DNA of 64,000 nucleotides from the NCBI GenBank assembly GCA_013076295.1, contig RQOL01000699.1, positions 3,720,001-3,784,000 on the forward strand. Direction: 5' to 3'. Made by a program: the position numbers and the translations under genes. The notes under the pieces were generated by a model, which made no database searches, was not told the DNA's origin, and saw nothing but the letters and a program-made list of their open reading frames with translations. The DNA is from Sanderia malayensis. Its lineage: Eukaryota > Cnidaria > Scyphozoa > Semaeostomeae > Pelagiidae. The stretch's first letter is position 1; each line of letters opens with the position of its first letter. Positions 13,801 to 58,952 of this stretch are shown piece by piece.

Positions 13801-16800
13801 CCAACGTGATATACAAAGACATCACCAACCAACTTACCTTGTAGAAAAAGTAGAGAACCACAGTGCTGAGGCGAGTGTAATAATTATGTCCGTGAACCAG
13901 AAGGACCTTCTTCAAATATCTGAATCTGTGAAATGCATAATCGCTTGTTCGCACAGCCTGTCTGCCTTCCTTTCCCATAATGCCACACCCGACGTGAGCT
14001 TCTTGGATCATGCTGCAATCGTTTGCACCGTCACCGATTGCCAGAGTAATTGGCTTGATGGAAGAATGCTTGACTAATTTTACAACCTGTGTATGAAGAA
14101 CATATATAATAAATAATAATCATGGTAAAAATAATGATAATAATTTTGGTAAACACCGTTCGATAGTGCTCAATAAACATATGTGTAAAGCAGTATATAG
14201 AATTTAGTGATGTTCAATAAAAACACATAATTCGCTGCAACTCTGAGTTTCGTGCTTACACACTCATCAGGCAGATTAATTCTAATAATCAAATTAGAAT
14301 TATTAGGATAATGACCATGAATCATGGGACATGAGCTATATGAAACATGAACCAAGAGCCATGCACTATGACTCAAGAGTCATTAGCAATGGCTCATGAA
14401 TCATAAGCCAGTGGTCATGTATCGTGACTCAAAAGCCATGCGCCATAAACAACAGCTCATGAAATGAATCGACACTGACCTGAGCTTTCTGTAGAGGTGA
14501 CATTCGACAACAGAGTACTGCTACACAACGTTGTCCAATGTTGACAAATAATTCTGAAAAGTAACGGGAATCGAGGTTAACGAATGCAAACACAGATCGA
14601 CATCAATGCATGATAATTGCGAGGGAATTGTAACGAAAAAAGAGCACAAGTAAACCTGCAAAGAATTCCATGATCAGTAATAGCGTTGATCCATCAACAA
14701 CCAAGGCGAATTCAACTTCTTTGCAGTCGTGGCTGTTGACCCTGTATTGTGCGTGGAAAGGAGCAGATACAAATATATGAAATGGGACCAATAAGAAATA
14801 CGACAAGAAATGAAAAAATGGAGAAATTAAGAAATGAAAGAAATGAAAAATAGAAGAAATTAAGAAATGAAAGAAATGAAAAATAGAAGAAACTAAAAAT
14901 GAAAGAAATGAAAGATAGAAGAAATTAAGAGATGAAAGAAATGAAAGATAGAAGAAATTAAGAAGTGAAAGAAATGGAAAATAGAAGAAAGTGGGACAAG
15001 ACAAGATAAAAGAAAGAAAAGACAGGAGAAAACAAAACAAAAGGAGAAAATACGAGATAAGGGAAAAGACAATGCAAGATAAAAAAATATCACCTTTTAT
15101 GAAACTCTTCGAGAACAGCTTGCACCTCTATCACAGTCTTCTTTTGCACCACATACAATAATTCCATGCCAGTTTGAATATGGCCACACGAATGGCTGAT
15201 GTTAACCGCTGTTTCCTGCTTATCACCAGTCAAAACCCACACCTTAATAGCAAAAAAACACAATGGTTAGTCTATATAACATAGAGCATCACAGCAAGAC
15301 ATCCAATAGTAGATGCATGAGGTATCAGTAAAGGTAATACAGCTACATGCCTTTATGCCAGCTATTCGTAAGGATTCTATGGTATCCTTGACACCGTCTT
15401 GCAATCTGTGAACAGAAATCAGTTGTCAGTACAGAAAATCAATCAATTGTCAGTACAGAAAAATTCGCAATCTAGATTATCAATTGCAATGAAGCTATGG
15501 CTTCATGGTTGAAAGTAAAGTCATGTTGGGAGAAGAAGAGAGAGGAAAGAAGGTTCGCATCAATATATCTCACCTATCTTCCACTGCAGTGGCACCTAAT
15601 AGATCAAGATCATTCTCAACTTCACCAAAAACTTTGGCCAACTGTAATGGATAGATAGAACGATAGCATTAGCACTTGCCTTCATATACAAAGATTCGCA
15701 ATGCTATATTCACATGTCTAAAATAAATACACGATTAAAAAGAATACAGGAGTCTCGTTCAACGTTTACCTGTTCCTCTCTGTCTGTAATAGCCTGTTGG
15801 GCGTTTACGAGCTGAAACAGAAAAACAAATTCATTAAGCTCGCTTCTAAGTGAACCATAAACCAGCAAATAACCGCCAGGGGGCCAAATTGCAAGATATA
15901 AATAAGGGCCCGGAGCGGCTATTCGGTTCGGTCATACCGATAGCATATCTCATAAAAAACTTCCAAAGAATTACATTGTATACTGTACATTGTTACAAAG
16001 GAAAACAAAACGAACTCGTTCTGACCTTTGTATTCATTTCTGTGTATTCCTCTTTACTGATCTTCTTAGAAGCAATAGTTAATGTTCGCAAACCAAGCTA
16101 AAACATATTTAAAACAATTAGAGCTATGACATAAATTACAGACCAGCAATATGTAAAGTAAATCGTGAAAACGTCAATAGCACTATACCTCGGCGTATTC
16201 GTCAATGTGTTTCTGCGTATCTTCTACTGGTCCAGATTTTATCCTATCCAGAACGTGTGATTCAGCACCCTTGCAAAACATTTGGATTTCACCATCTGGA
16301 CCTTCCACAATGTTACTCATTCTCTTCCTTGAGGAGTCAAATTCCAACACGTGCAATAACTTATAACTGCAAAGATAAATAATAGTGTAAAGACGATTGC
16401 TCATAAATTGCTCACAAAACAATAACTTGGTGGAAATTTCACCCATAAGAAGTAAAATTTCGAAATTTACGAGCTTGGCTATTCCACAGATGTCTTAGTA
16501 GGACGTATAATAGAGAAGTGGAGATATGTTCTCGAGAAACTATGTTGACAAAGTTAGGAAAACAACGCGGTTCAGGTTAAAATGACTTACGATTGATCCT
16601 TTCCATTCACTTCGAGCTCCATGTATTCTCCTTTTTTGCCCTTGAAAATTACACCATGTCTAAAACGAAAAACAAGAATGTAAGAAAAATATAAGATTGT
16701 GACTCCTAGACATAGACGGGCAAGGAAAGAAACGAACTATGAGGCTTAGAAATGGCTCAAGAAAAAGTGGAAGTATGTAGAAGATGGAAAATCAGCAAAA

Positions 16801-56216: not shown

Positions 56217-58952
56217 TTAGTAATCATCTTGAATATTTTTTGTTGGGCTCGATGTTGGTGGTGAGCGAGATCTTGATCTTGGATATGTTCTTCTCTTCTG
56301 TACAGGTGATCTTGATCTTGATCTTGAGTAGGATCTTCTTGGCGATCTTGATCTTGAGAGTGATCTATCACGTTTGTCCATTGGGGAATCCTATTATAAA
56401 CAAAATCAAGAAGGCTTGTACTTGAAAGATATCAATTGCTGAATAAACAAAATCTTAATATGGAGCGTTTTTTAATACATACATCAATGAGATGAATCCT
56501 CTTGCCAAATAATTCAGAACCATCAAGTTTTCTCATTGCTGTTCGTACATCCCTTGAAGATGCAAACTCAACAACACTAAAATAAAATATTAATGACTTG
56601 AATATAATTGATAAATTAGTTGTCAATTAGTTGCTTCAGAGTTATGCAAATAACAAGAATAATAATATATCATATTATATATGATATGATAGCTAGAGTA
56701 GAAGCAAGAAAGTAGACTTAGTTCTCTGTTACTCTGAGTTTCATGCTTGCGCATTCATCAGACAAACTATACCAATGAAAAATATCCCATTTTATTATGG
56801 TATTATATATCATAGTTGTATATATCATTCTCATTGGTGTTTGTATATCTCTGAAAGATTCAAACTCAAGAACACTAAAATAAATATATATCATATATAA
56901 TCATCTAGCTATATCTATTCTAGCTATATCTATTCTACACCTAGCTATAAAATAAATATATATCATCATATATCAAGTGTGTCTGATGATTGCAAAAGCA
57001 TGAGAGAACCAGTCACCTTTCATGCTTCTTATCTATTTATCTATCATCTAGCTATATATCATAGTTGGCACAAAAACTAAGTTAGTTTCAGGCAGGTCAA
57101 TTCTGTTAAATGTATTTCTGCAGAGTTCTCACAAAATAGGTCAACTCACGTAAAAATCAATATAACATCATAACATGAACAAGGAACTACTGATTATGAA
57201 TATAGAATATACTTGAGTTCACCACGCAAAATGTCATGTGGTGCCTATTTGCATCAACCAATGAGAGAAGAGTAATTATCATATTCTTCAACAAATTTAC
57301 CCTTCGCCCTCTTTGTCTTTGTGACATTTTGTGAAAGCCACTTCTCCGACTTGTCTAAAATGATCCTTCAGATCCTAAAGAGTGACAAACGTTTGATTAA
57401 AAAATGATTTTTGTGGTCAATTGGGTGTATAGATGGCTGATAAGATATTAAACTTTGACATTAAATAATAACAGCAATAATAATGATGTTCGTCAAAATG
57501 AAGAATCATTGATAGTAAAAAGATATGTACTATGAATATATAATTTATTAGAGGACAATATATATAATATACTCCACCTTGATAAAAATTTAGCATTATT
57601 TGAAAAATACTTTTAACAAACGACCAGACTTACCATGAGAAAATAAAGGCCAAACAGAGCCAAAATCTATTGATTTCCCAATAAAATTTTTCAATGCCAA
57701 ATAGAAACAAGGGCGGTTTTGTACCACTGCCGAGGTAGCATAAAGAAACAGGCCAAAACTGGACCAAGAGACCAAATATCAAAGGCCAACAATTTAAAAG
57801 AGAATGAGCCAAAACCAAGATAATTTTAGCACCATAGCGAACAATTCCTTGGTATGAGACCAGAATGATTCTTAATGGGATCAAGACGAAACAAAAGTGA
57901 CCAGCAGAAAGTGCCACTCACTACCAAGCCAAAATATAACTTATCTATATGAAGTAGGAAAATCAATAAAATCAATATCTAAGATATGATATTTTTTCAG
58001 AAAAATACAAAAGTATTTCATGCAAATCTGCAAAGGCATAACAAGAAAAAAAAAATTAAGAAATAAGCCTGTGCTCACCTGCCAACCACATCTATTTGAT
58101 AGGTTCTCTACAATGATTCTGTTATCAGTGTTATATGGAGCACCAAATCGACTGCAAGAAGAAAACAATGTTTATTGGAATATTAAGTAGATTTAAACAA
58201 GTTAATGGCTGATTTCAAAATACTATGGAATCAATTAAATAAATTTACAGGAGAACCATGACTGTGGTATAAAAAAGTAGCAAATTGATGTCTTGTAGTC
58301 CTTGTATTACTTTATATCACAATTAATTTTTATATCAACCAACTTTGGATAAACAATGCACTCTTTGGATTCCCTTTTCCATTAATCATGATTTACATTA
58401 TATCCCCATCCGTAAGTATATGTAATTCTTTACCCAATAAATAAAAATAGTGTTGTTAGATGTACCTGCCGTATCTTGGTCTACTGTCTCTACCCCTGTC
58501 AAAATCTCTCCTTCCATAATCCCGGCCACCTCCATATCCACCCCTGCCTCTATCAGATCTGTTAGGTTTGGCATGGTCAACTATGATTTTGTATCCAAGA
58601 AGATCTTTGTTATTAAGCTCGTAAACCGCGTTATCAGCATCTCTGTAGTCATCAAACTCCTGTTCAACAAAAAAGAAAAACAAAACTATTTAGATTGTTC
58701 CATACAATAAATGCATTTCATAGCATTTCTAATAATTTCTGAAGTATTCGCGCAGAAAGTGATATATTTCTGTGATAAAAAAGTACTTACAATAAAAGCA
58801 AACCCCGTCTTCAAATTGATATCCCTGACAGTTTTCGAGAATCCATTGTCCTTCAAAAAATCGTCCAAATCCCGCATCCTTGCATCCCGAGGCAAACGGC
58901 CTATGAAGACTCTATAGCTTCCAGGACTTCCATTTCTTTGATCTCGACTCAT
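56217..58952 (-). CDS. SR splicing factor with two RRMs (SRSF4/5/6-like, 256 aa)
   Basis: Exons 58952-58791, 58659-58466, 58151-58079, 57374-57301, 56576-56483 and 56390-56217 join in phase to 257 codons. RRM1 carries RNP2 (VFIGRLP) and the usual RNP1 position at the exon junction (GFAFIEFDDYRDADNAV). A Gly/Arg/Asp-rich linker (RGRGGYGGGRDYGRR) follows. RRM2 is the shortened type (RIIVENLSNRCGWQDLKDHF ... VVEFASSRDVRTAMRKL), here with RCGWQ where family members usually read R(C/V)SWQDLKD. The C-terminus is an RS domain (SRSRSPRRSYSRSRSRSP). These proteins bind exonic enhancers and recruit the spliceosome in the nucleus. The length matches SRSF5 (272) best. Confidence 0.92.
56725..56766 (-). 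ncRNA. Hammerhead ribozyme motif with GCAA-capped stem II
   Basis: Read on the minus strand from 56766: TTTGT (stem I), CTGATGA at 56761-56755, a perfect 4 bp stem II (ATGC / GCAT) closed by a GCAA tetraloop, GAAA, a short stem III (ACU/AGU around CAG), a GUA site with expected cleavage between 56730 and 56729, then ACAGA pairing with TTTGT (five pairs including one G-U). Every core base is present, and the layout equals the motif at 14235-14274 although the stems differ in sequence. It lies in an SR-gene intron among AT-rich repeats. Confidence 0.8.
56983..57013 (+). ncRNA. Decayed hammerhead-like motif
   Basis: On the plus strand CTGATGA (56983-56989) is followed by a 3-4 bp hairpin (TGC AAAA GCA), but the expected GAAA reads GAGA, and the short stem III and cleavage triplet are not recognisable. 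It is probably an inactive relative of the nearby motif at 56725-56766, in opposite orientation. Confidence 0.35.

Follow-up and report, generated by a model that had tools for sequence, protein, structure and literature searches.

Hammerhead ribozyme sequences of Penelope-like elements in the Sanderia malayensis genome: a truncated intronic copy and the paired ends of its relatives

The DNA analysed here, referred to as the window, is a 64,000-nucleotide stretch of the Sanderia malayensis genome. Three RRM exons and one RS-rich exon on its minus strand belong to a gene for an SR splicing factor (Table 1). Only the frame at 56432-56626 scored above the Pfam RRM cut-off (21.3 against 20.7 bits), and the other two scored 16. 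A host intron of this gene, spanning about 57300 to 56577, holds a hammerhead motif. The preliminary description had claimed this motif at 56725-56766; it is present there and extends slightly further, to 56769-56722, and its strand had to be corrected to minus. Because the exons of the SR gene lie on the same minus strand, with RRM and RS-type exons on either side, the motif sits in the intron in sense orientation, as had been stated. A second, inverted hammerhead piece was also found. Between both pieces, 56831-56885 is a decayed duplicate of the end of an SR-gene exon (~56534-56590), with 85% identity over 62 bases.

Table 1. Positions of the features discussed, in window coordinates (PLE, Penelope-like element).
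Feature	Position	Strand	Evidence and remarks
RRM exon	58991-58686	-	
RRM exon	58689-58456	-	
RRM exon	about 56577-56480	-	
RS-rich exon	56390-56217	-	
Probable PLE pseudo-LTR piece with hammerhead, no ORF	56694-56804	-	93.7% to L002 over 111 bp, 90.1% to L003, and others; 3' end at 56694 is of end type A (no tail)
Candidate target-site duplication, left copy	56673-56686	+	Identical to 56801-56814 at 13 of 14 bases; 7 additional bases separate it from 56694; by eye, AT-rich, not secure
Candidate target-site duplication, right copy	56801-56814	+	By eye, AT-rich, not secure
Hammerhead motif, type I layout (stems I, II, III and core)	56722-56769	-	Model R1, 66.6 bits; copy is among the 20 training sequences of R1
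Catalytic core CUGAUGA (DNA CTGATGA)	56755-56761	-	
Stem II AUGC/GCAU with GCAA loop	56743-56754 (arms 56754-56751 and 56746-56743)	-	Sequence, covariation
GAA	56742-56740	-	
Stem III ACTCAGAGT, palindrome ACUC-A-GAGU	56731-56739	-	
Predicted cleavage position H17 = A (GUA)	56730; cut between 56730 and 56729	-	Analogy with known hammerheads
Second, inverted hammerhead piece, stem III and cleavage site missing	56976-57036	+	R1 19.2 bits, E 0.0027, outside the training set; matches L020/L021
Sister motif	14231-14278	-	Named in the preliminary description; R1 67.4 bits, training sequence; PLE tail hairpin 3' of the motif (end type B)

Read on the minus strand from 56769 to 56722, the motif is UAGUUUGU-CUGAUGA-AUGC-GCAA-GCAU-GAA-ACUCAGAGU-A-ACAGAGAA. 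It carries the CUGANGA...GAA core, A15.1-U16.1, H17 and three helices in type I order. Stem I (TTTGT/ACAGA) has 5 bp, one of them a wobble, and the perfect 4-bp stem II, GNRA loop (GCAA) and GUA site described earlier were all found. A relaxed descriptor (the core, with at least 3 bp in stem II, 3 bp in stem III and 4 bp in stem I) matched twice in the window, both times on the minus strand, and not once in 300 first-order Markov windows. Against Rfam release 15, nothing in the window reached the gathering score, 56600-57150 gave no hammerhead family at E <=10, and seven related loci gave no hammerhead at E <=1. Rfam hammerhead models expect a fuller stem III, so this silence lowers the standing of the motif little. 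A search of phage records found nothing, as expected. The motif at 56769-56722 is a real hammerhead sequence, carried by a truncated copy of a Penelope-like element (PLE). Over the whole genome, Rfam Hammerhead_1 gave a single sub-threshold place, which belongs to a different, tandem family (L009). Two canonical-looking type I hammerheads lie there head to tail on the minus strand, 224 bp apart (L009:1539 and L009:1763), with a different palindromic stem III (ACACTGTGT).

From the sister motif at 14231-14278(-) to the one at 56769-56722, both partners of two pairs have changed, the first of stem I from U-A to C-G, the first of stem II from A-U to G-C, which agrees with the joint change of paired positions noted in the preliminary description. 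The sister motif also sits in an intron, and the neighbouring exon reads by eye like a P4-ATPase, which we presume from its GDGAND motif. Covariation was evaluated in a curated alignment of 20 motifs selected to be diverse, among them the two from the window and one from another family, the tandem L009 motif. Double changes were present at 10 of the 13 pairs, and 92.3% of the cells were paired. The covariation score was 0.477 as against 0.172 for shuffled alignments, none of 500 shuffles reached any of five measures, and slid structures scored far lower than the hammerhead pairing. The fold proposed in the preliminary description to be maintained in both window motifs is thereby borne out, with compensatory change in the stems of these 20 motifs. 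A larger set of 76 distinct motifs includes chance matches (e.g., L016, L033, L048:42, L057:79 and L072:25), and the statistics are taken from the curated 20. H17 was A, C or T in all 20 and never G, the single G among the 76 being the chance match L016. A GNRA loop is common without being fixed, with GCAA, GTAA, GAAA and GAGA found alongside ATAA and ACAA. The first stem II pair, usually G-C in hammerheads, is U-U in 29 of the 76 distinct motifs, some of which are chance matches, and this position is unpaired in 10 of the 20.

Folding of a single RNA does not favor the hammerhead, with a lowest-energy fold of -12.3 kcal/mol as against -2.9 for the hammerhead pairing and a z-score of only -1.28. 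The preferred monomer fold buries the core, the CUGA pairing with the UCAG of stem III. Two RNA copies, in a folding computation, co-fold via the stem III palindrome. The fourth pair of stem III encloses one base and was C-G in 13, G-C in 2, U-A in 2 and a wobble in 3 of the 20 motifs, never broken; the two G-C rows (L064 and L069) come from a single family, and in one of the wobble rows, L067, stem III is 10 nt long. Because a 1-nt loop cannot close in one strand, changes at this fourth pair make sense if two copies pair via stem III. This covariation suggests a dimeric helix III and cleavage as a dimer. From the palindrome and its 1-nt centre we infer that cleavage would take place in a dimer or be helped by protein. 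Lunse, Weinberg and Breaker reportedly proposed in 2017 that PLE hammerheads act as dimers. Since a palindromic stem III is better suited to a dimer, a lone intronic copy would be predicted to cleave inefficiently if at all, and the copy at 56769-56722 is probably idle, a passive relic. With one intact copy and a second, inverted piece that has no stem III, little or no cleavage would be expected in the SR intron, and the copy is probably of no consequence for the SR gene. For the anole PLE, the sections of PMC11167929 drawn on here describe a hammerhead that cut only with protein present.

To place the motif in its genomic context, the genome of the window itself (184 Mb, 918 contigs) was searched. 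The query 56725-56800 gave at least 42 matches (best 40 of 153 candidates scored) and a related 144-base query at least 52 (best 40 of 355 candidates scored); these copy numbers are lower bounds, and another search scored the best 40 of 202 candidates. Open frames were found beside some copies, in longer flanks. One frame of 361 aa (L036:5004-6086, minus) had 1570 homologues and at least 124 matches in the genome (113 of 273 candidates scored). Among the 20 best PLE loci, several of which are not independent (L052 and L053 share flanks), a same-strand hammerhead lay beyond the ORF in 16 with the strict descriptor. Allowing up to four substitutions, 19 of these 20 had one, located 97-225 nt past the point where the protein match ends, and only L056 showed no hammerhead. 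Twelve PLE loci are more divergent, at 43-54% aa identity. Seven of them (L058, L060, L062, L064, L067, L068 and L069) have an apparently intact hammerhead whose stems differ, three (L059, L061 and L065) have a damaged one, and none was seen in L063 and L066. In L002, L003, L005, L008 and L010 the hammerhead is embedded in a longer repeat family that has no long ORF; identity among them is 85-98% across several hundred bases to either side of it, and one copy, L031, adjoins a NACHT-domain gene. L022 and L023, on contigs C616 and C614, share 99.9% identity across 1200 bases or more, reflecting either recent duplication or an assembled second haplotype.

The frames of 737 aa (L041) and 698 aa (L042) carry FYPSI and YRDD motifs. 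A fold search with the L041 model (mean pLDDT 66) returned a retron reverse transcriptase (RT, E 1.2e-7) and telomerase TERT (E 4.4e-6), both with low TM-scores; sequence matches to retron RT and group II RT, in 1 of 27 members each, were weak and agree with the fold match. The ORF of the PLE loci is thus predicted from its model to fold as a reverse transcriptase. A YIGLTEG motif is present, and a region of two strands, two helices and a strand was modelled confidently; we take these to fit a C-terminal GIY-YIG endonuclease. No GIY-YIG endonuclease was matched in Pfam, PDB sequence or fold searches of the ORF, and Pfam, NCBIfam and PDB sequence searches gave it no name. Weak matches to a Dam methylase (7 of 30 members, best E 5.1e-4) and a Peptidase_M16 match below the cut-off were not counted as evidence. 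Between the RT and the protein end, a W-F/Y-NPPY motif is nearly invariant (L041:1471-3684(-), alignment A4). Very probably, then, the window motif is the hammerhead ribozyme of a PLE, and the short pseudo-LTR piece at 56804-56694(-) was inserted in sense in the intron of the SR splicing-factor gene.

Short copies of the family were examined for their ends. From 53 loci, 49 were retained after dropping L025 (other subfamily), L104 (the same place as L026), L071 (three pieces) and L095 (two same-strand pieces). The sample was chosen by best match to a hammerhead query, which favors full-length copies and B ends, and L103 and L070, whose flanks are similar, may be one duplicated insertion. With L014 (146 bases) as the ruler, 32 copies consist of one piece and 17 of two pieces placed head to head with their 3' ends outward. 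One-piece copies start within the first 8 ruler bases in 31 of 32 cases, exactly at ATTAG in 14. Their 3' ends are of two kinds, end A at base 83 (CTACTCTA) and end B at base 146 (CATCTATA). Long copies have their 5' limit at TC|ATTAG, with TAAATAAATA about 34 bases upstream, a combination that looks like an initiator with a TATA-like box. Flanking duplications scored >=10 in 19 of the 49 copies compared with 1.5% of 959 swapped flank pairs, and >=8 in 33 compared with 9.2%. A hairpin occupies the interval from A to B; its GCUC/GAGC stem does not vary, and all four pairs of its inner stem are doubly changed. Its covariation score was reached by none of 500 shuffles, while two of the five measures were not unusual (25/500 and 249/500).

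Insertions with two outward ends revealed a regularity. In the short two-piece copies, one outer end was A and the other B in 12 of 17; the remaining five fell outside the end classes (bases 78, 141, 44, 88 and 131), and one of these, L099, looks B + B by eye. Ten outward ORF pairs were picked by eye, leaving out two inward pairs (C390 and C850); C303b and C866 were not resolvable, and all eight resolvable pairs had one end with a tail and one without. Six further inverted insertions (L040, L041, L046, L055, L006 and L011) likewise had one tailed and one tailless end. In total, 14 of the 14 resolvable larger insertions, from several families, combine one A end with one B end, as rechecked by script (p = 6e-5 if ends are independent and equally common); autonomous loci with one end seen numbered about 5 A and 6 B. 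Because the flanks share a duplication scoring >=10 in 12 of the 14 (L046 and L006 fail), as against 11 of 182 swapped pairs, we regard these larger inverted structures as single insertions. In four of the 17 short two-piece copies (L026, L028, L029 and L109), the B-started piece runs only as far as base 78 or 79, adjoining the start of the A-started piece, as if both had been copied from one RNA.

An alternative that concerns the inverted insertions alone is self-priming on an antisense template, proposed in 2013 for a rotifer Penelope, in place of two start sites on the sense RNA. Head-to-head structures with palindromic junctions were explained in this way in the portions of PMC3846280 used here, but self-priming gives no reason why the outward ends should differ as A and B in every resolvable larger insertion, and the adjoining pieces in the four short copies also stand against it. 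We therefore consider it unlikely. The rule of one A and one B was not found stated in our literature search, the scope of which lay outside most subscription papers and the primary Penelope and PLE-hammerhead papers. The present analysis adds the count of different sites at both ends of one insertion over several families, together with the compact hammerhead-only elements, and the count sharpens a known PLE feature.

These observations suggest a sequence of events for PLE insertion. Transcription probably starts just upstream of the hammerhead, judging from the sharp 5' ends of short copies, the initiator-like TC|ATTAG and the TAAATAAATA box. The transcript would contain the hammerhead, then 3' limit A, about 35-40 nt past the cleavage site in the family examined, and then B beyond the hairpin tail, and these limits would fit the two internal reverse-transcription start sites of the anole PLE. 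The element protein may cut an AT-rich target with an 8-18-bp stagger, and the RNA would be copied from one or both cut strands. Evenly balanced in our judgment is the fuller proposal that, per integration, two protein subunits prime the two cut strands at sites A and B flanking the tail hairpin, probably on one RNA, and that the compact 83-146-nt elements are SINE-like parasites keeping the transcription start, the ribozyme and both start sites. Fold conservation, ORF association, target duplications and the two end types with their pairing are observations made in this genome, those on the ORF and the target duplications in relatives of the window copy.

Outside the PLE reading, three other origins were weighed. 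A retrozyme of the coral or mussel type, in which non-autonomous units of 170-400 bp are repeated in tandem and hammerhead cleavage yields circular RNA, would bring the same ribozyme class as the window motif. Retrozymes are described as co-occurring with PLEs in the parts of PMC7761336 consulted, and the same genome holds the retrozyme-like hammerhead pair 224 bp apart in L009. The family copies, however, are dispersed, single or inverted, and bounded by target duplications, and their relatives sit 3' of a reverse-transcriptase ORF. No head-to-tail array of the window family was found among the fetched loci, except that L095, alone of the 53, has two same-strand pieces. A retrozyme is accordingly very improbable: of the two links suggested in the preliminary description, retrozyme or Penelope-like, the latter holds through the RT ORF and the former falls, as copies end at the element ends and not at the cleavage site. 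Still less credible is a domesticated intronic ribozyme regulating the SR gene. Its sense position in an intron with all stems intact would suit such a role, which has been suggested for conserved intronic type I hammerheads of amniote genes (in the text of PMC6155905 available to us), but the window copy has many dispersed counterparts, among them a relative of 93.7% identity, and its palindromic stem III needs a partner. The least plausible origin, a DNA transposon or MITE with a hammerhead by chance inside its terminal inverted repeats, would match the inverted outward-pointing pairs and target duplications, but duplication length varies, 32 of the 49 short copies consist of a single piece, paired ends are unlike in kind (one tailed, one tailless) and the associated ORF is a reverse transcriptase.

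Herein, the copies of one genome record PLE insertion in unusual detail. The role of the minimal PLE hammerheads is called unknown in the passages of PMC7761336 cited here. Because its PLE families are intact and diverse and its compact hammerhead copies numerous, this genome offers natural experiments on how PLEs insert and why a hammerhead is retained. The covarying palindromic stem III supports selection for cleavage as a dimer, and the rule of one A and one B end provides a simple prediction for the existing in vitro system of the anole element. The PLE hammerhead itself is ordinary in kind, and the end pairing is a useful mechanistic regularity.

Minimal type I hammerheads of PLEs were reportedly described by Cervera and de la Pena in 2014 and by Lunse, Weinberg and Breaker in 2017. 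The motifs studied here resemble these known minimal PLE hammerheads in their type I layout, very weak stem III, pseudo-LTR location, dispersed non-coding copies and inferred dimer action. They differ in that stem III is present as a 9-10-nt palindrome and covaries between families of one genome. Animal retrozymes (PMC7229834) are likewise small non-coding elements with type I hammerheads, but they are tandem, make circular RNA and have canonical tertiary contacts, unlike the window family (but see L009). With the Penelope elements of Adineta vaga and Drosophila virilis, as covered in the available text of PMC3846280, the relatives share direct or inverted pseudo-LTRs, a tail on one inverted pseudo-LTR, target duplications (8-10 bp there) and TATA and initiator-like motifs in the pseudo-LTR. 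The word 'hammerhead' is absent from the main text of that source as available, and the pairing of tailed and tailless ends is counted here over several families. The closest comparison is with the Poseidon PLE of Anolis carolinensis, as reported in the sections of PMC11167929 drawn on here. In vitro, its reverse transcription starts at two adjacent internal sites, the tail being the stretch between them, and both strands are cut and extended. Common to both systems are a hammerhead followed by a stem loop with two adjacent RT starts, an optional tail, target-primed reverse transcription (TPRT) on both strands and AT-rich targets. The hammerhead overlaps the ORF start in Poseidon, whereas it lies 3' of the ORF match here, and the start sites showed no strand difference in vitro in Poseidon, whereas the two ends of one insertion use different sites here.
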